The notes under the pieces: generated by a model
Told to the model about the DNA's origin: nothing
The model's input: only the letters and a program-made list of their open reading frames with translations
Databases searched by the model: none
Assembly (NCBI RefSeq): GCF_031624635.1
Contig: NZ_JAMQOQ010000007.1
Span: forward strand, 1 to 64,000
Reading direction: 5' to 3'
DNA from: Halogeometricum sp. S3BR5-2
GTDB taxonomy: Archaea > Halobacteriota > Halobacteria > Halobacteriales > Haloferacaceae
Length of the DNA stretch: 64,000 nt
Translations under genes and position numbers: made by a program
Part shown: positions 9,930 through 61,014 of the stretch, piece by piece
How positions within the stretch are numbered: position 1 is the first letter of the stretch
How the letters are laid out: each line of letters starts with the position of its first letter

Positions 9930-12900
9930 GCTTCAACTCCACGAGGGTACGTCTGAAACCAGCGAGTTGTCGGATATGTTCCGCTACCGAGGACAGCTTC
10001 AACCCCACGAGGGTACGTCTGAAACCGAGTCCGGCTACCGGACTCTCCACAGACGACGGACGGCTTCAACCCCACGAGGGTACGTCTGAAACACGTGTCG
10101 AGCGGCGGGGCCATCGAGCAGTACAACAGCTTCAACCCCACGAGGGTACGTCTGAAACTATTCTGCCGGGGTATCGCTACCCGGTCCCGGAAGCGCTTCA
10201 ACCCCACGAGGGTACGTCTGAAACCCGCACATCCTCACCATCGGTCAGACGCGCGCCGGGCTTCAACCCCACGAGGGTACGTCTGAAACGGCAACGCTCG
10301 TCGCTGTTCAAGTGACTCAGAACACGCTTCAACCCCACGAGGGTACGTCTGAAACTTCGAACCCCTGAACGCTGTACCCCATTCGACACAGCTTCAACCC
10401 CACGAGGGTACGTCTGAAACAGCGTCAAGACCGTCTCCGCAGGCCGCACACGCGCTTCAACCCCACGAGGGTACGTCTGAAACGCGAGGTATCGAGACTG
10501 TAGATACGCGTCGGGTGCTTCAACCCCACGAGGGTACGTCTGAAACGCGTCCCTTCGGCGTCGTCGCCCCCGTTCGGCGCTTCAACCCCACGAGGGTACG
10601 TCTGAAACAATCGAGCACGCATCAATCGCATACTCGCCAGTCGGCTTCAACCCCACGAGGGTACGTCTGAAACTGAGGGCGTCCCGGTCGGCCTCGCGCA
10701 CGTCCCGGCGCTTCAACCCCACGAGGGTACGTCTGAAACACGAGCGGGGGCACGTCGCCGACTACGGTGCGTTCAGGGACCTCGTGGCGCTTCAACCCCA
10801 CGAGGGTACGTCTGAAACAAGTCCATCTCGTGCCTCCGGTCGGCGAACTCGTCGCTTCAACCCCACGAGGGTACGTCTGAAACCTACTGGCACTGCGAGC
10901 GGTGCATGATGTTCTACCAGCTTCAACCCCACGAGGGTACGTCTGAAACGCGAGCGGTCGCCCGGCGAGCCCGAGTCATCCTCGCTTCAACCCCACGAGG
11001 GTACGTCTGAAACAGTGGAAACGGATTCAAGAGTTCGCCGCCCTCGACGCTTCAACCCCACGAGGGTACGTCTGAAACCAGATAGTATGGTGAATCCGGG
11101 CGGCCCTTACGCGCTTCAACCCCACGAGGGTACGTCTGAAACAACGCCTCGAACTCAGCCGCCGGAAGCTACAGAGCGCTTCAACCCCACGAGGGTACGT
11201 CTGAAACTCCTCGTGACCGTCGGCGGTTCGGATGTCGGTACGTCGCTTCAACCCCACGAGGGTACGTCTGAAACGCAGAGGGGCTTTCGCGTCCTGATTC
11301 GCCTCCTCGCTTCAACCCCACGAGGGTACGTCTGAAACTGACGTCTCAAAACATCCCGCAGGCGACGCAATTGAAGCTTCAACCCCACGAGGGTACGTCT
11401 GAAACTCGCGGAGGTCTCCGAGAGTCGTCTCCTCCCCCGCGCTTCAACCCCACGAGGGTACGTCTGAAACGTCAGTGATGACGATCAGGACGGACTCTCG
11501 GCGCGCTTCAACCCCACGAGGGTACGTCTGAAACTCCGGTCGGCGTCATCCATGGCTTCGTCGTGTGGAGCTTCAACCCCACGAGGGTACGTCTGAAACT
11601 CGGCAGTTTGGGCGTGTTCGGCCGTCGTCGCAGCTTCAACCCCACGAGGGTACGTCTGAAACACCTCATGGCCTCCGTGGAGGGCGACACCATCGATGAG
11701 CTTCAACCCCACGAGGGTACGTCTGAAACCACTTCTCTTCTCCGCGGTGGTCGTAGCACCGGAGGCTTCAACCCCACGAGGGTACGTCTGAAACGCTCTT
11801 CGGTTTCTTCGACAGGTTCGGCACCGGAGCGCTTCAACCCCACGAGGGTACGTCTGAAACGGCGGCCGGGGCGTCTCCCGGCGCCGTCGCGACCTCGCTT
11901 CAACCCCACGAGGGTACGTCTGAAACCGTGCGGCGGTCGCTCTCGGTCGGGCGGCCGAAAGCTTCAACCCCACGAGGGTACGTCTGAAACGCGAGTTCTT
12001 CCATCACCTCGGTCTCCCGCTCGGCGCTTCAACCCCACGAGGGTACGTCTGAAACGACGATGTAGTCGTACCCATCTTCGAGCGAATCGCTTCAACCCCA
12101 CGAGGGTACGTCTGAAACCTCGACAGTAGTTCTCGGCGGCCACGCGCACGGGGCTTCAACCCCACGAGGGTACGTCTGAAACCGGCAGTGTAGGGCCTCC
12201 CCGGCTCCATCGCTTGGCGCTTCAACCCCACGAGGGTACGTCTGAAACACCATGAGCGCGAGCAGGCAGGCAGCGAGCAACCGCTTCAACCCCACGAGGG
12301 TACGTCTGAAACCCGAGCCGTCGCGCGCCGTCATCGTCGTCAGGGTGCTTCAACCCCACGAGGGTACGTCTGAAACATCCGCTCCAGAGGACTTGCATGA
12401 AGTCAAATCCTCCGCTTCAACCCCACGAGGGTACGTCTGAAACACCCTGACGTAGTCGGGAGAGAACAGCCACCCGACGCTTCAACCCCACGAGGGTACG
12501 TCTGAAACCCCTCGGGTTTGATGTATTTGAGTGGGTGGATGAGGCTTCAACCCCACGAGGGTACGTCTGAAACTCGAACTCACCGGCGGATTGGAAATCC
12601 CCGCCGATACGGCTTCAACCCCACGAGGGTACGTCTGAAACAGCACCATCACCGAGTCCCGGTCACTCCCCCTGCGCTTCAACCCCACGAGGGTACGTCT
12701 GAAACCGAGGACGCACGTTTCGCCTCCGTCCGCTTAAACTCGCTTCAACCCCACGAGGGTACGTCTGAAACTCGGCTACGGCCATGCAGCATACGCGACT
12801 CGACGGCTTCAACCCCACGAGGGTACGTCTGAAACTCAATCTCCCGTTCGCCCGCACGGTCGACGTCGCGGCTTCAACCCCACGAGGGTACGTCTGAAAC

Positions 12901-13292
12901 TCCGCCATATTGCACGGTACATCTAACGCATACTGCTTCAACCCCACGAGGGTACGTCTGAAACCGCCGACACGGCACGTGATTGAGGCCTTATCGTGGT
13001 CGCTTCAACCCCACGAGGGTACGTCTGAAACACTCTTGAGAGGTCTGCACGACAGCGCCTTTGACTGCTTCAACCCCACGAGGGTACGTCTGAAACGGGA
13101 ACGGTTGCCGGCAGCACTCCGACCCCAACCCGCTTCAACCCCACGAGGGTACGTCTGAAACTTCGGGAGAGCGCGTCTCCGACCTCCCGCGTCGGGAGCT
13201 TCAACCCCACGAGGGTACGTCTGAAACCTGTTGCTTGTGCGCCGATTCGTAGACCGCCTCGGGCTTCAACCCCACGAGGGTACGTCTGAAAC
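9930..13292 (-). CRISPR. Type I-B CRISPR array, 52 repeats and 51 spacers
   Basis: The 30-base repeat reads GCTTCAACCC...ACGTCTGAAAC on the plus strand. The usual haloarchaeal orientation is the complement (GTTTCAG...GGTTGAAGC), so transcription runs right to left. I counted 52 repeats starting at 9930 and ending 13292. All look identical except the first listed (9930-9959), which has CTCC for CCCC; a changed terminal repeat marks the trailer end and puts the leader at the right, next to cas2. Repeat-to-repeat spacing is 62-68 bases except one 49-base spacer at 10740-10788. Long frames through the array are artefacts. Confidence 0.98.
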
Positions 13293-56193: not shown

Positions 56194-56700
56194 GCGTCTG
56201 CTCCAAGAGTTGTTCCAACGGGTCCGCGCCCCACCCCACGTTGCCGCTGTAAGACTACGGGAAGCAGCCTCAGATCCAAGAAATCACGCTGTTCCTCAAT
56301 AACGCAAGCTAACATCGGTCGCGGTCTGATCAATAGCTTTATTATCTTGAGAGTCATTCGCTACCGTACCGCAATTTTGGCGTGCTAAGACGCCATGGTG
56401 TTTTGGCGTCGAAAACACGAACTGCTACTTATCTCTTTGCTGTCTCTCTCGTGATATCGCTCAGTAGACAACCGTTCCGAGACAATTATCGACAGCACCC
56501 TTTCCTTCATCTCGAGGTCATACGGGATTCGTGTTTACAGCGGCAACGTGGGGTGTGGGACAGTCGTCAATCCCGGGTTTACAGCGGCAATGTGGGGTCT
56601 GGTATCAGGATGAGATTCCCCAACCGTGAGTAATACCGCCCATATTGCCGAAATTTATCGGATGAACTGGAGTAAGTGACGTTTACAGCGGCAATCCGGT
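56178..56700. other. Replication origin with origin recognition boxes
   Basis: Boxes TTTACAGCGGCAACGTGGGG (56534-56553), TTTACAGCGGCAATGTGGGG (56578-56597) and a shorter TTTACAGCGGCAA (56682-56694) point one way; CCCCACGTTGCCGCTGTAA (56234-56252) and AGTGCCGCTGTAA (56181-56193) point the other. AT-rich DNA (about 56290-56530) lies between, as expected for an unwinding element. The orc1/cdc6 gene starts 40 bases downstream. Confidence 0.88.
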
Positions 56701-56738
56701 GCCGAAGATTGATATAGGTTCCCTGAGTGGAACATCCC

Positions 56739-57935
56739 ATGAGCGACACGGAGTCATTCTTCGGGGACCCCGATCCCATCTTTGCAGACAAGGAACTCCT
56801 GCGTGTGAGTCATCTCCCCGAAGGTGACCGTATTATTGGTCGGAAAGAGGAACTTAGTAACCTCGCGAACGCGATCAAGGACGCCCAACGCGGAGGGACG
56901 CCGAACAACGTGTTGATTTACGGGAAGACGGGCACCGGAAAGAGTCTCTGTTCAAAGTACATCACGCAGGATTTGACCGACGCCGCCACTGAGAATAACG
57001 TTAACGTCTGCGTCGCGTACGTCGATTGTTTTCAAGATTCCACCGAGACACAGACCGTCCGCACGATCGCCGAGTCGTTCAACGATCCCGATGAGACGGA
57101 CATAACAGTCCCGGCATCTGGTGTCTCGACGTCCGACTACTACCGTCGGCTCTGGAAAATTCTCGACGCCCGCCTGGACGTCGGGATCATCATTCTCGAC
57201 GAAATCGACAAGCTCGAAGACGATAACGTCCTCATGCAACTCTCGCGTGCGGCCGAAGCCGGGAAGGTGGATGACAGCACGCTCGGCATCATCGGGATCA
57301 GCAACAAAATCCGCTACAAGGAATCGCTTAACGAGCGCGTCAAATCAAGCCTCTCAGAGCGCGATTTTGTGTTCCCGCCGTACGACGCGAATCAGCTCCG
57401 CGAGATTCTCTCATCGCGGGCGGATGCGTTCCGAGAGGGTGTTCTGGATGACGAGGTGATCCCGAAGGTGGCTGCCCTCGCAGCGAAAGAACACGGTGAC
57501 GCCCGGAAGGCAATCGACATTCTTCGATACGCCGGGGAGATCGCCGACGAACACGGTGACAACCATGTCCGCGCCGAGTACGTCGATGAAGCCCACGAAC
57601 GCGAAGAAGAGGCACGACTCGCCGAACTCATCGGGAAGCAACCCGAACACTCGAAGTATCTGCTTCAAGCACTCGCTCTCCAGATGCAACAATCGAGTGA
57701 ACCCGATGCTGTGATCCCCTCGAAACAGGTCTATTCAGCGTACAAAGTCGTCTGTGAACGCGAGGGGACTGACCCGCTCAAAATCCGTCGTGTCCGCGAC
57801 CTCCTCTCCGAGCTGGCATTTCTCTCACTGATCGAGCAGGACCGGAAGGGTCGGGGGAAAGGGAAGGGGGCTCATGCAGTGAACCAGCTTGTCGATGCGC
57901 CCGAGCTTGTCATCGAAGCGTGTAAATCTGCCTGA
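56739..57935 (+). CDS. cdc6: Orc1/Cdc6 replication initiator
   Basis: 398 residues from ATG 56739, with a GATATAGG TATA-like box about 25 bases before it. AAA+ domain: DRIIGRKEELSNLANAIKDA, Walker A YGKTGTGKSLCSKYI near residues 60-70, Walker B IIILDEIDKLEDDN, sensor 1 GIIGISNKIRYKESLNERVK, then the arginine region GDARKAIDILRYAGEIA, and a C-terminal winged helix. It binds the boxes just upstream and loads the replicative helicase. Probably plasmid-specific. Complete. Confidence 0.95.
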   Translation: MSDTESFFGDPDPIFADKELLRVSHLPEGDRIIGRKEELSNLANAIKDAQRGGTPNNVLIYGKTGTGKSLCSKYITQDLTDAATENNVNVCVAYVDCFQDSTETQTVRTIAESFNDPDETDITVPASGVSTSDYYRRLWKILDARLDVGIIILDEIDKLEDDNVLMQLSRAAEAGKVDDSTLGIIGISNKIRYKESLNERVKSSLSERDFVFPPYDANQLREILSSRADAFREGVLDDEVIPKVAALAAKEHGDARKAIDILRYAGEIADEHGDNHVRAEYVDEAHEREEEARLAELIGKQPEHSKYLLQALALQMQQSSEPDAVIPSKQVYSAYKVVCEREGTDPLKIRRVRDLLSELAFLSLIEQDRKGRGKGKGAHAVNQLVDAPELVIEACKSA

Positions 57936-58030: not shown

Positions 58031-58735
58031 CTACCGCTTTTCGCTCAGGAGACCAATCTGTGAAGACAGATACTCTTGAAGGGCAGTGACCGTTCCTTCT
58101 GAGACAGCTGAGGCTCCGAAGTCACTCCGATATCCGTGCTTGAGTTCGTCGCTCTCCAAGATTTCTAGTCCACGCTCAAGCTGCTCCCGTAACGCATTGT
58201 CGTCTCCTCGCCGCAGATGGGGCGTGACAGCGTCGAGGTCGAGTTCTTCAGCGACTGCTAAGACGTCCCGTAGGTCCGTTTCACGGCCGCTGTGGAGTTT
58301 TGCTGCGACGAGGACCGCCCCATCGATGACTCTGGCTGTCGTCGTCACCGTCCCCCCGCTTACCTCCTGCTGGTGGCTGTGGTCGTACAGATAGTCGAAG
58401 GACCACTGTGCCTCCGTTTGGCGACACCCGAGGCCGTTCACCAGCAGATCGAATCCGATTGGCTGTTGTGGTGTGAGTCGCTTTTCGTACTCGATCACTT
58501 CGGTGTCGTAGAACCATTCTTTGGCGTGGCTGTCCGTTTCCTCGAAGCCCTGTCCTTCGAGGAATTCGGCGAATTCAGCCTTGGAGTCGGGTGCGACGAC
58601 GATATCGAGGTCTGTGGAGAAGCGTGCGTTGAACGCTGAAACAGCGTAGCCGCCGACAAGGACGTACTCGTGCTCCGCTCGCGTGAGTTCCTCGAGCAGT
58701 TCGATGAGTGCGTCACTTCGGTTGTTGAAGCTCAT
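58031..58735 (-). CDS. Nucleotidyltransferase, probable toxin of HTH-NTase pair
   Basis: 234 residues. YVLVGGYAVSAFNARFSTDL DIVVAPD is the minimal nucleotidyltransferase pattern (GG...D-x-D); later GFDLLVNGLGCRQTEAQWSF supplies the third acidic position. The C-terminal half is helical (DLRDVLAVAEELDLDAVTPH). It is second in a minus-strand operon, ATG overlapping the stop of the winged-helix gene by four bases, as in AbiE- and MenAT-type systems. Confidence 0.82.
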   Translation of the reverse strand: MSFNNRSDALIELLEELTRAEHEYVLVGGYAVSAFNARFSTDLDIVVAPDSKAEFAEFLEGQGFEETDSHAKEWFYDTEVIEYEKRLTPQQPIGFDLLVNGLGCRQTEAQWSFDYLYDHSHQQEVSGGTVTTTARVIDGAVLVAAKLHSGRETDLRDVLAVAEELDLDAVTPHLRRGDDNALREQLERGLEILESDELKHGYRSDFGASAVSEGTVTALQEYLSSQIGLLSEKR

Positions 58736-59406
58736 ATCTGTGCCCGTTCCGTCTCTCGATACGTGACACCGAGGTCAAGGTCTTCGTACATCCGGTCAAG
58801 CATCGCCAGCGCTGACTGGAACTGGGCGTAGTTCTCGCGCATATACTCGATCGTCTCAGCTCTCGGGATCACTGGGTACCCTTCGACGTGATTGACGTTG
58901 AGTGACGGGCGTGGCTCAAGGACGATCTGTAGCGGTCCGTCCAACTTGTCTCGGGGTTGTCGCTCGAATGCGGTGGGGAGGTCGAACGACTCGAAAAACA
59001 CCTCCCAGTCGTCGACGTCTTGCTCGCGGACAGCAAGGAACAGCGGATAGTCGTTGGGCTTGCGACCGACCTGGTAGCCGCCTTGGGTCCATACGTAGAC
59101 GGCGTCGATCCGCGTGAAGCTGAACGGCCAGTCTCCGAACTGTGGGATGACGTAGGTCTCTTCAATCGAGGGCGGACTGACGCCGGCGCTGGCAGCGACG
59201 AGCTCACGTGCGGCGTCTCTCACGCGCTCGTCGACGACGGAGAGGCCGTCGTCATAGCTGACGTAGCCTGCGTCTTCGAGCCGATTGGTGGCCTGTCTCA
59301 CCGTCTCGTACGGCGTATGGAGGTGTTGTGCGACACGACGGATGGAGTCACCATTCTCGATGGCGAGGATGATTTGCGCCGCCGTGTCATCGAGTACCTC
59401 GTACAT
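58732..59406 (-). CDS. Winged-helix regulator, probable antitoxin of HTH-NTase pair
   Basis: 224 residues from ATG at 59406. The beginning is a helix-turn-helix: IILAIENGDSIRRVAQHLHT PYETVRQATNRLEDAGYVSY. The remaining part (FGDWPFSFTRIDAVYVWTQG, QVGRKPNDYPLFLAVREQDV) is shared by many haloarchaeal regulators paired with nucleotidyltransferases. First gene of the operon; it diverges from parA, so their promoters share the 59407-59797 iteron region. Confidence 0.82.
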   Translation of the reverse strand: MYEVLDDTAAQIILAIENGDSIRRVAQHLHTPYETVRQATNRLEDAGYVSYDDGLSVVDERVRDAARELVAASAGVSPPSIEETYVIPQFGDWPFSFTRIDAVYVWTQGGYQVGRKPNDYPLFLAVREQDVDDWEVFFESFDLPTAFERQPRDKLDGPLQIVLEPRPSLNVNHVEGYPVIPRAETIEYMRENYAQFQSALAMLDRMYEDLDLGVTYRETERAQI

Positions 59407-59520: not shown

Positions 59521-59797
59521 ACCGAGAAACGAATGCATCGAGAAAAACGAACGAAACGGGTGAAACGAATTAATTGCAATGAATGAGCTCGGTGAACTCC
59601 GAGAGGGTCTGATCCCTCTGGAGTAACGAACAAACTGAGCGAAACGAATGTGTTGATAGAAATGAACTCGTTTCGTTCAGTGAATGTGACGAACAATGGG
59701 TTTTAACAGGGCAGTATTCCATTCACCGAGCGAAACACTCGCACCGAACGCACCGAGAGAAACGAACGAAACGAAATCACCACTGGACACGAACGAT
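59521..59797. repeat. GAAACGAA iterons upstream of parA (centromere-like)
   Basis: Copies of GAAACGAA(T/C) or close variants at about 59526, 59546-59556, 59562, 59641, inverted near 59670 (TTTCGTTC), and 59758-59775. They continue inside the parA partner gene near 60677-60790. Likely the partition site. Confidence 0.7.
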
Positions 59798-60616
59798 ATG
59801 AGCGACACGAACACTTCACGAATTACCGTAGCGAATCAGAAAGGAGGTGCGGGGAAAACAACGGACGTCATCCACACTGGCGGCGCACTTGCCGCGCGAG
59901 GATACGACGTACTCCTCGTCGATATCGACTACCACGGTGGGCTCACATGCTCACTTGGCTACAGTGACCTGTACTACGATACTGATCGGACCACGCTCTT
60001 CGACGTGTTCGACTTTGATCAGATGGAGGCTGTGAACGATATCATCGTCGAGCACGAAGAATTCGATATTCTCCCCGCCAGTGAGAAGCTCGCGAACAAC
60101 AAGAACATCCAGACGCTGCTCGAAGCGCCTAAGAGCCGGGAGCGTCTGGGAATGACTCTTGACAAACTCGAGATGGACTACGACTACATCGTCGTCGACA
60201 CTCCACCGTCCCTCAATGTTCTCACCGACAATGCCCTCGTCGCGACGGGGAACGTTATCATCCCAGTACTCCCTGAGAAACTCAACGCCAATAGTCTCCG
60301 AATTTTTGCGAAACAGCTCCAGTCCCTCGAACCAGCCTATGGTGACGTCAACCGCCTCGCTATCGTATGCAACCGGGTTGAACAGAACGCCGAACATCGA
60401 AGTACGATCGAGGAAATCCAGTCAGCCTACTCGCTACCTGTATTCGAGATCCCAAAGCGGACGGACCTATCACAATCGATTGGTGAAGGCGTATCGATCT
60501 TCGGCTTCAGCAAGGAGAACAAGCGGGTCGAAGACGCCCGCGCGCTATTCAACGATATCGCCGATCTACTTGACGAGACCTTCGAGAAAACCCCGCCGAC
60601 GGAGGTGGAAGCATGA
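59798..60616 (+). CDS. parA: ParA/Soj-type partition ATPase
   Basis: 272 residues from ATG 59798; 34 upstream codons in the open frame fall in the iterons and are excluded. Deviant Walker A KGGAGKTTDVIHTGGALAAR, Walker A' LLVDIDYHGG (usually DxDPQGN), Walker B DYIVVDTPPSLNVLTDNA. A plasmid-type partition motor; it overlaps its partner gene by four bases. The changed A' motif is unusual but keeps the key Asp. Confidence 0.93.
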   Translation: MSDTNTSRITVANQKGGAGKTTDVIHTGGALAARGYDVLLVDIDYHGGLTCSLGYSDLYYDTDRTTLFDVFDFDQMEAVNDIIVEHEEFDILPASEKLANNKNIQTLLEAPKSRERLGMTLDKLEMDYDYIVVDTPPSLNVLTDNALVATGNVIIPVLPEKLNANSLRIFAKQLQSLEPAYGDVNRLAIVCNRVEQNAEHRSTIEEIQSAYSLPVFEIPKRTDLSQSIGEGVSIFGFSKENKRVEDARALFNDIADLLDETFEKTPPTEVEA

Positions 60617-61014
60617 GCGATGATTGGGGAAGCGCCTCGGGTATCGAAGGAAACTACGATGACGACGATGAAGCGGAGGAAACGAACGAGGCGAGCGAGG
60701 TGACCGAGATGACTGAAACCAGTTCCTCGACTGGAACGCAGGAAACGACTTCACCGAATAAAACGAAGGAAACGAGCAAAACGAACATCAAGGAGGAGTG
60801 GAACGGCCGAACGATCTACATCCCGGACAGCATCCTTGACGACCTGGAAGATACGTACCTTGAATCCCAACTGAAACTCCGAAAAGCGGGTCGTAACGAG
60901 TTCAAGAAGAATCGACATTTCTACCCCCTCCTTGTGCAGTTCGGTCTTGAAGCACTTTCAGACGCCGACGCCGATGAAATCCAGGCTCGGCTCTCCGACA
61001 TCGCCGACGAATAA
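60613..61014 (+). CDS. ParA partner protein, putative centromere-binding
   Basis: 133 residues. The first 55 are Glu/Thr/Ser-rich (ETNEASEVTEMTETSSSTGT, KTKETSKTNIKEEW) because the DNA carries GAAACGAAC iterons in frame. The C-terminal part (NGRTIYIPDSILDDLEDTYL, LKLRKAGRNEFKKNRHFYPL) looks like a ribbon-helix-helix-type DNA binder. Position after parA with ATGA overlap suggests the ParB role. Low-complexity N-terminus is probably disordered. Confidence 0.75.
   Translation: MSDDWGSASGIEGNYDDDDEAEETNEASEVTEMTETSSSTGTQETTSPNKTKETSKTNIKEEWNGRTIYIPDSILDDLEDTYLESQLKLRKAGRNEFKKNRHFYPLLVQFGLEALSDADADEIQARLSDIADE

Follow-up and report, generated by a model that had tools for sequence, protein, structure and literature searches.

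Organization of the par locus

The window, which is the whole 64-kb stretch of DNA that was analysed, carries on its + strand a parA gene (59798-60616) whose 272 aa product is a Walker ATPase (Pfam AAA_31, 3.1e-34). The start at 59798 corresponds to the starts of annotated plasmid ParA genes, with a further in-frame ATG at 59696, and the protein is a small ParA in which the ATPase domain begins at residue 9 and no N-terminal DNA-binding domain is present. The parA stop overlaps, as ATGA, the start of a partner gene on the same strand (60613-61014) that encodes 133 aa and has 61 distinct ortholog genes among the 70 matches kept at a threshold of at least 170 bits. The partner falls into no Pfam or NCBIfam family, and the ParB/Spo0J CTPase domain of type Ia ParABS systems was absent from it in searches of both collections. 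Comparison of the orthologs identifies three parts. The N-terminal peptide MSDDWGSASGIEGNY (60613-60657, + strand) is near-invariant in 12 aligned orthologs and is a candidate for a tail that contacts ParA. It is followed by a low-complexity linker (60658-60783, + strand; residues 16-57), rich in E-T-N/S/K and variable in length, and by a C-terminal domain (60784-61011, + strand) for which an alignment of 39 domains and a low-confidence model indicate a beta-alpha-alpha arrangement, probably a ribbon-helix-helix. Conservation covers the 15 residues at the N-terminus (MSDxWGxASGIEGNY) and the 76 at the C-terminus, neither of which carries the array described below, and throughout the 61 distinct genes the N-terminal peptide and the C-domain flank a linker of variable length. 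The module is widely distributed: of 391 genomes of the class, 75 have the ParA at E<=1e-110, and matches to the partner occur in 78 plasmid records, 44 of them with 80% cover or more.

The neighbourhood of the operon includes 20-bp tandem repeats followed by an orc1/cdc6 gene (56533-56598 and 56727-57935); these repeats, 2 kb from parA, are a possible replication origin. A gene pair encoding a nucleotidyltransferase and a helix-turn-helix protein adjoins parA on the - strand (58031-59406), and a similar pair lies beside parA in Haloarcula marismortui pHMA155. Elsewhere in the window there is a CRISPR-like array (9930-12902) with the unit GCTTCAACCCCACGAGGGTACGTCTGAAAC and a period of ~65 bp.

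One iteron upstream of parA and within the partner gene

A weight matrix, trained on non-coding sequence in front of parA at 47 other loci with the window's close group left out, identified an array of the iteron RAAACGAAY, phased at 9 bp, upstream of parA (59525-59777, + strand), with nine sites on the + strand and one on the - strand at 59665. In the same scan parA had no site, whereas the linker held five and the C-domain one, against a background in the rest of the window of 0.753 sites per kb per strand; the Poisson odds at this density are 2e-11 for the upstream block and 7e-8 for the linker. The intragenic iterons (60678-60787, + strand) start at 60678, 60741, 60759, 60768 and 60777 and all lie in one frame, GAA ACG AAY. 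Exact copies of GAAACGAA on the + strand occur upstream at 59526, 59562, 59641, 59759 and 59768 and in the partner gene at 60679, which together are six of the eight + strand copies in the window, and both - strand copies lie elsewhere. The exact 8-mer therefore occurs only once inside the partner gene, the other copies there being one-step variants (AAACGAA at 60761 and 60779, GAAACGA at 60742 and 60769). These positions and weight-matrix sites bear out the first-pass annotation in its claim that repeats extend from upstream of parA into the partner gene. That annotation also had them encoding an E-T-N/K-rich N-terminus of the partner: such a tract is indeed encoded, but it is the internal linker and not the N-terminus.

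The upstream array was seen in all 25 orthologs inspected. By eye, TTTTAA at 59701-59706 (+ strand) is the probable TATA box from which the operon is transcribed, and a TTTAA-containing block is similarly placed in most of 25 orthologs. Across 54 loci the arrays hold a mean of 15.5 upstream sites, with ten in the window. Of the 1,935 upstream site-to-site distances no longer than 60 bp, 87% are divisible by 9, a lag peak that supports phasing of the repeats. Within the linkers of these 54 loci, 295 of 296 sites are in the same frame, giving Glu-Thr-Asn/Ser/Lys. If the 9-mer is translated in either remaining frame of the same strand, the residues are more basic, and translation of the opposite strand yields hydrophobic ones.

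Apparent constraint on the linker as DNA

The first-pass annotation had named codon bias as an explanation that, if sufficient by itself, would undermine it. Both synonymous recoding and synonymous diversity speak against this. When the protein was kept and its codons were redrawn from the usage of the same genes, the sites per linker fell from 5.49 to 0.45 (59 loci; p<0.05 in 57 of them, and p=0.01 for the window linker alone), so that codon bias alone is ruled out. The same 59 loci have no such excess in the C-domain (0.22 observed, 0.21 recoded) or in parA (0.41 and 0.82), and in a recode test of 88 loci, comprising 25 loci of family 0 and all loci of the other families, p<0.05 was reached by 56 linkers, in contrast to 16 of the C-domains and 13 of the parA segments. 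Linker codons are correspondingly skewed relative to the rest of the operon, with Glu read as GAA in 65% (28-37% elsewhere), Thr as ACG in 63% (28-47%) and Lys as AAA in 54% (22-23%). Among 31 genes of one ungapped clade, third-base (synonymous) diversity is 0.051 at seven linker ACG columns and 0.160 at the remaining fourfold columns of the linker. It is 0.310 in the partner outside the linker (18 columns) and 0.239 in parA (79 columns), significantly above the value for the ACG columns (MWU p=8e-4). One ACG column (column 59) is variable (0.287), and in the same clade the linker Glu columns read GAA (p=0.003). Given the loss of sites on recoding and the low synonymous diversity, the linker appears to be constrained at the level of DNA. 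The overlap of centromere and gene that had been put forward for this locus thus receives strong comparative support as an overlap of centromere-type DNA with coding sequence, the array being a putative centromere.

It is conceivable that selection acts on the protein, favouring an acidic Thr/Ser/Glu tether, and that the repeat is a by-product of this together with codon bias. The linkers are hydrophilic and of low complexity in most families, as such selection would have it. However, this explanation is highly unlikely for two reasons: first, the motif is lost when codons are redrawn according to the usage of the genes themselves; second, in other families the tethers are of the K-N-E, S-K-P or A-K-P type and match their own upstream DNA.

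Linkers and upstream repeats across ParA families

From 151 loci, 21 were dropped (parA missing or broken, no start, and the like) and 123 remained after de-duplication. In distant relatives, with ParA ~38% identical, both the repeats and the linkers differ. By eye, locus L075 has aagaacgag/tggaacgca upstream and a linker with AAGAACGAG and AGGAACGGA (K-N-E, R-N-G); L083 has tccaaacct/tccgaacca and TCCGAAACG/TCCAAACAG (S-E-T, S-K-Q); L082 has agcaaaact and GCAAAACCG (A-K-P); L070 has gaaacgatc and GAAACGATC (E-T-I); and in L152 agatcaaagatagcaagga upstream is paired with AGATCAAAGACAGCAAAG in the linker. The L082 linker fails the same-strand recode test (p=0.87), which covered 121 loci. The upstream repeats of families 3 and 6 are on the opposite strand and were missed by this initial same-strand test; subsequent tests were conducted on both strands.

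When linkers were matched to upstream DNA over 14 ParA families, with 20 loci representing family 0, the score was 0.311 for the own family and 0.184 for other families (permutation p=5e-5), and the own family ranked first in 10 of the 14. Control segments also favour the own family slightly (C-domain 0.188 vs 0.157; parA 0.181 vs 0.160; p about 0.001) and shared base composition therefore contributes to the match, being probably what this small control excess reflects. Family 1 (17 loci, 303-aa ParA) has no upstream phasing and a linker recode effect in 1 of 17 loci. Families 9 and 13 fail the 200-bp upstream test, and for family 9 an array ~440 bp upstream of parA was found post hoc.

A match between linker and upstream DNA at the level of families is also what copying predicts, and raises the possibility that the repeats spread without function. 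In that case slippage, or gene conversion with the array in front of parA, would have made and homogenised the linker, and its coding copies would be idle as DNA. Linker lengths, which change mostly in steps of 3 aa (lengths modulo 3: 45, 14 and 2 of 61), are in keeping with this. Nevertheless, such spread is an unlikely explanation, given that synonymous variation is lower in the linker motif than elsewhere in the same genes, and given that the arrays are rearranged between loci while linkers are no nearer to the array of their own locus (0.227, against 0.226 for other loci; 25 loci of family 0). This own-locus excess is absent from families 0, 2, 3 and 4 alike (family 2, p=0.06), so that recent local gene conversion is rejected and the coupling is visible only between families.

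Broken copies of the partner gene were also seen. In L068, the Salinigranum rubrum plasmid NZ_CP026313, a second copy ~1.4 kb past the partner gene has a stop in its linker and keeps five iteron sites; a fragment in L067 lacks parA and has about six sites, and a decayed copy in L066 has few. Since these copies are mixed in their retention of sites, they were given no weight.

The putative DNA-binding domain of the partner

The C-domains of 39 partners, drawn from the 14 families minus family 13, align as a strand, a long helix and a helix. The AlphaFold model of the C-domain has the same beta-alpha-alpha arrangement at low confidence (mean pLDDT 57.2; 45.6 for the full-length partner) and found no match in Foldseek. 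The best ribbon-helix-helix match in Pfam was RHH_5 (E=0.13, in 2 of the 39 members), and a profile of the 39 domains retrieved no related PDB chain at E<=1, chains of SegB, whose structures are present in the PDB, included. The similarity of repeats between families tracks four strand residues before a conserved Tyr (rho 0.22, family-block permutation p=0.006): families 3 and 12 have in common NVNMYLP and CAAAGA-type repeats, and families 0 and 4 GRTIY and GAAACG-type repeats. Ribbon-helix-helix proteins touch bases through their strand, and the association fits, though it does not prove, a protein of this kind that reads bases through the strand. The C-terminal domain is a probable ribbon-helix-helix DNA-binding domain, and the position of the gene, the beta-alpha-alpha domain and the link between strand and repeat together suggest, indirectly, that the 133-residue partner binds the repeats, as the first-pass annotation had proposed.

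Given that orc1/cdc6 lies only 2 kb away in the window, the repeats could instead be bound by another protein, such as a replication initiator or a host regulator, to which the operon is merely adjacent. This is very unlikely because, in families and plasmids with differing neighbours, the type of repeat goes with the par module, and it tracks the putative strand residues of the partner as well.

Comparison with known partition systems

A partition site within the partner gene is already known, from SCP2 parT and segAB, and in B. subtilis parS lies within spo0J. The window locus resembles in its layout the type Ib ParABS systems TP228 ParFG-parH, pSM19035 delta-omega-parS and pCXC100 which, in the parts of the source available, likewise have a small ParA, a small downstream partner gene, an upstream array of direct repeats and a partner with a flexible N-terminal part; the beta-alpha-alpha DNA-binding domain of their partners has a probable counterpart in the window partner (PMC5016525). 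Two differences stand out: first, the linker of the partner is here encoded by iterons that extend into its gene. Second, type Ib partners are described in the same partial text as having an arginine finger in the flexible N-terminal part (PMC5016525), whereas the window partner has no Arg in residues 1-65, a region that is Arg-rich in several other families. Since a search of the window partner for the arginine finger was negative and the fold is only putative, the system is not classed as a proven member of type Ib.

The archaeal SegAB system of Sulfolobales also combines a ParA-type ATPase with a small ribbon-helix-helix partner, and in S. acidocaldarius SegB sites lie upstream of and also within segAB; unlike the iterons, however, SegB sites are 13-bp palindromes dispersed on the chromosome, and the sections available do not mention a linker coded by repeats (PMC12284271). 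In the accessible text on Streptomyces SCP2 ParT-parS, parS lies inside the coding sequence of the DNA-binding partner but, in place of a tandem array that shapes a low-complexity tract, consists of one 18-bp inverted repeat (PMC12260392). Similarly, parCAB of Myxococcus pMF1 has iterons within ORFs, although their encoding of the partner's own linker is not reported in the part of the source seen (PMC3235114). The portions seen of PMC5120986, PMC8305020 and PMC6471424 make no mention of such repeats. A search of a literature collection with few subscription papers and no preprints found no account of iterons that code for the linker of the partner or co-vary with it, and in the literature examined haloarchaeal plasmid partition systems are little described.

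A model for the par module

Taken with the comparisons above, the locus is probably a type-Ib-like partition system whose partner binds the iterons and has a disordered linker written in centromere DNA. In such a system the C-domain, probably as a ribbon-helix-helix dimer, would bind the 9-bp iterons, which would serve as both operator and centromere, and the conserved N-terminal peptide would engage ParA. The array would be split, with most copies around the promoter and about five within the partner gene, so that bound partner would lie on both sides of parA and the intragenic copies may matter for partition or autoregulation. As each iteron spans exactly three codons, the array runs on in frame as what would be a soluble, hydrophilic and disordered tether joining the ParA-facing peptide to the DNA-binding domain, and DNA-binding specificity would in this way dictate the amino-acid sequence of the linker. 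Selection on the binding sites would fix the codons of the tether together with a large part of its amino-acid sequence; on a shift of binding specificity between families, operator and tether would change jointly. On balance we lean towards extending this to a class of haloarchaeal partition systems in which the tether of the binding protein is encoded by the centromere itself and a change of specificity rewrites the operator, the intragenic sites and the tether.

If true, this would be a clear case of selection at the level of nucleic acid writing the disordered region of a protein, in a basic cellular process and in roughly a dozen ParA families. The protein sequence alone would be enough to recognise such modules, and the iteron of haloarchaeal plasmids, and so perhaps their incompatibility type, would be readable from sequence. 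Synonymous recoding would part the DNA role of the linker cleanly from its protein role.

Further features of related loci

Many distant parA genes are preceded, whatever their iteron, by a GTCTGACG-type block and then a TTTA-like box (for example L069, L076 and L117), a possible promoter or regulator site that they share. In L128, iterons (1810-1855) lie in front of a gene that itself precedes parA, and they may double as coding sequence for the N-terminus of that gene's product (E-T-P-E-T-T-E-T). A search of viral contigs gave 29 pattern matches, none of them a relative. The haloviruses phiH1 (L160) and ChaoS9 (L161) carry distant versions of the par module, and in ChaoS9 GAAACG repeats occur both at the parA start and in a long E-T linker.
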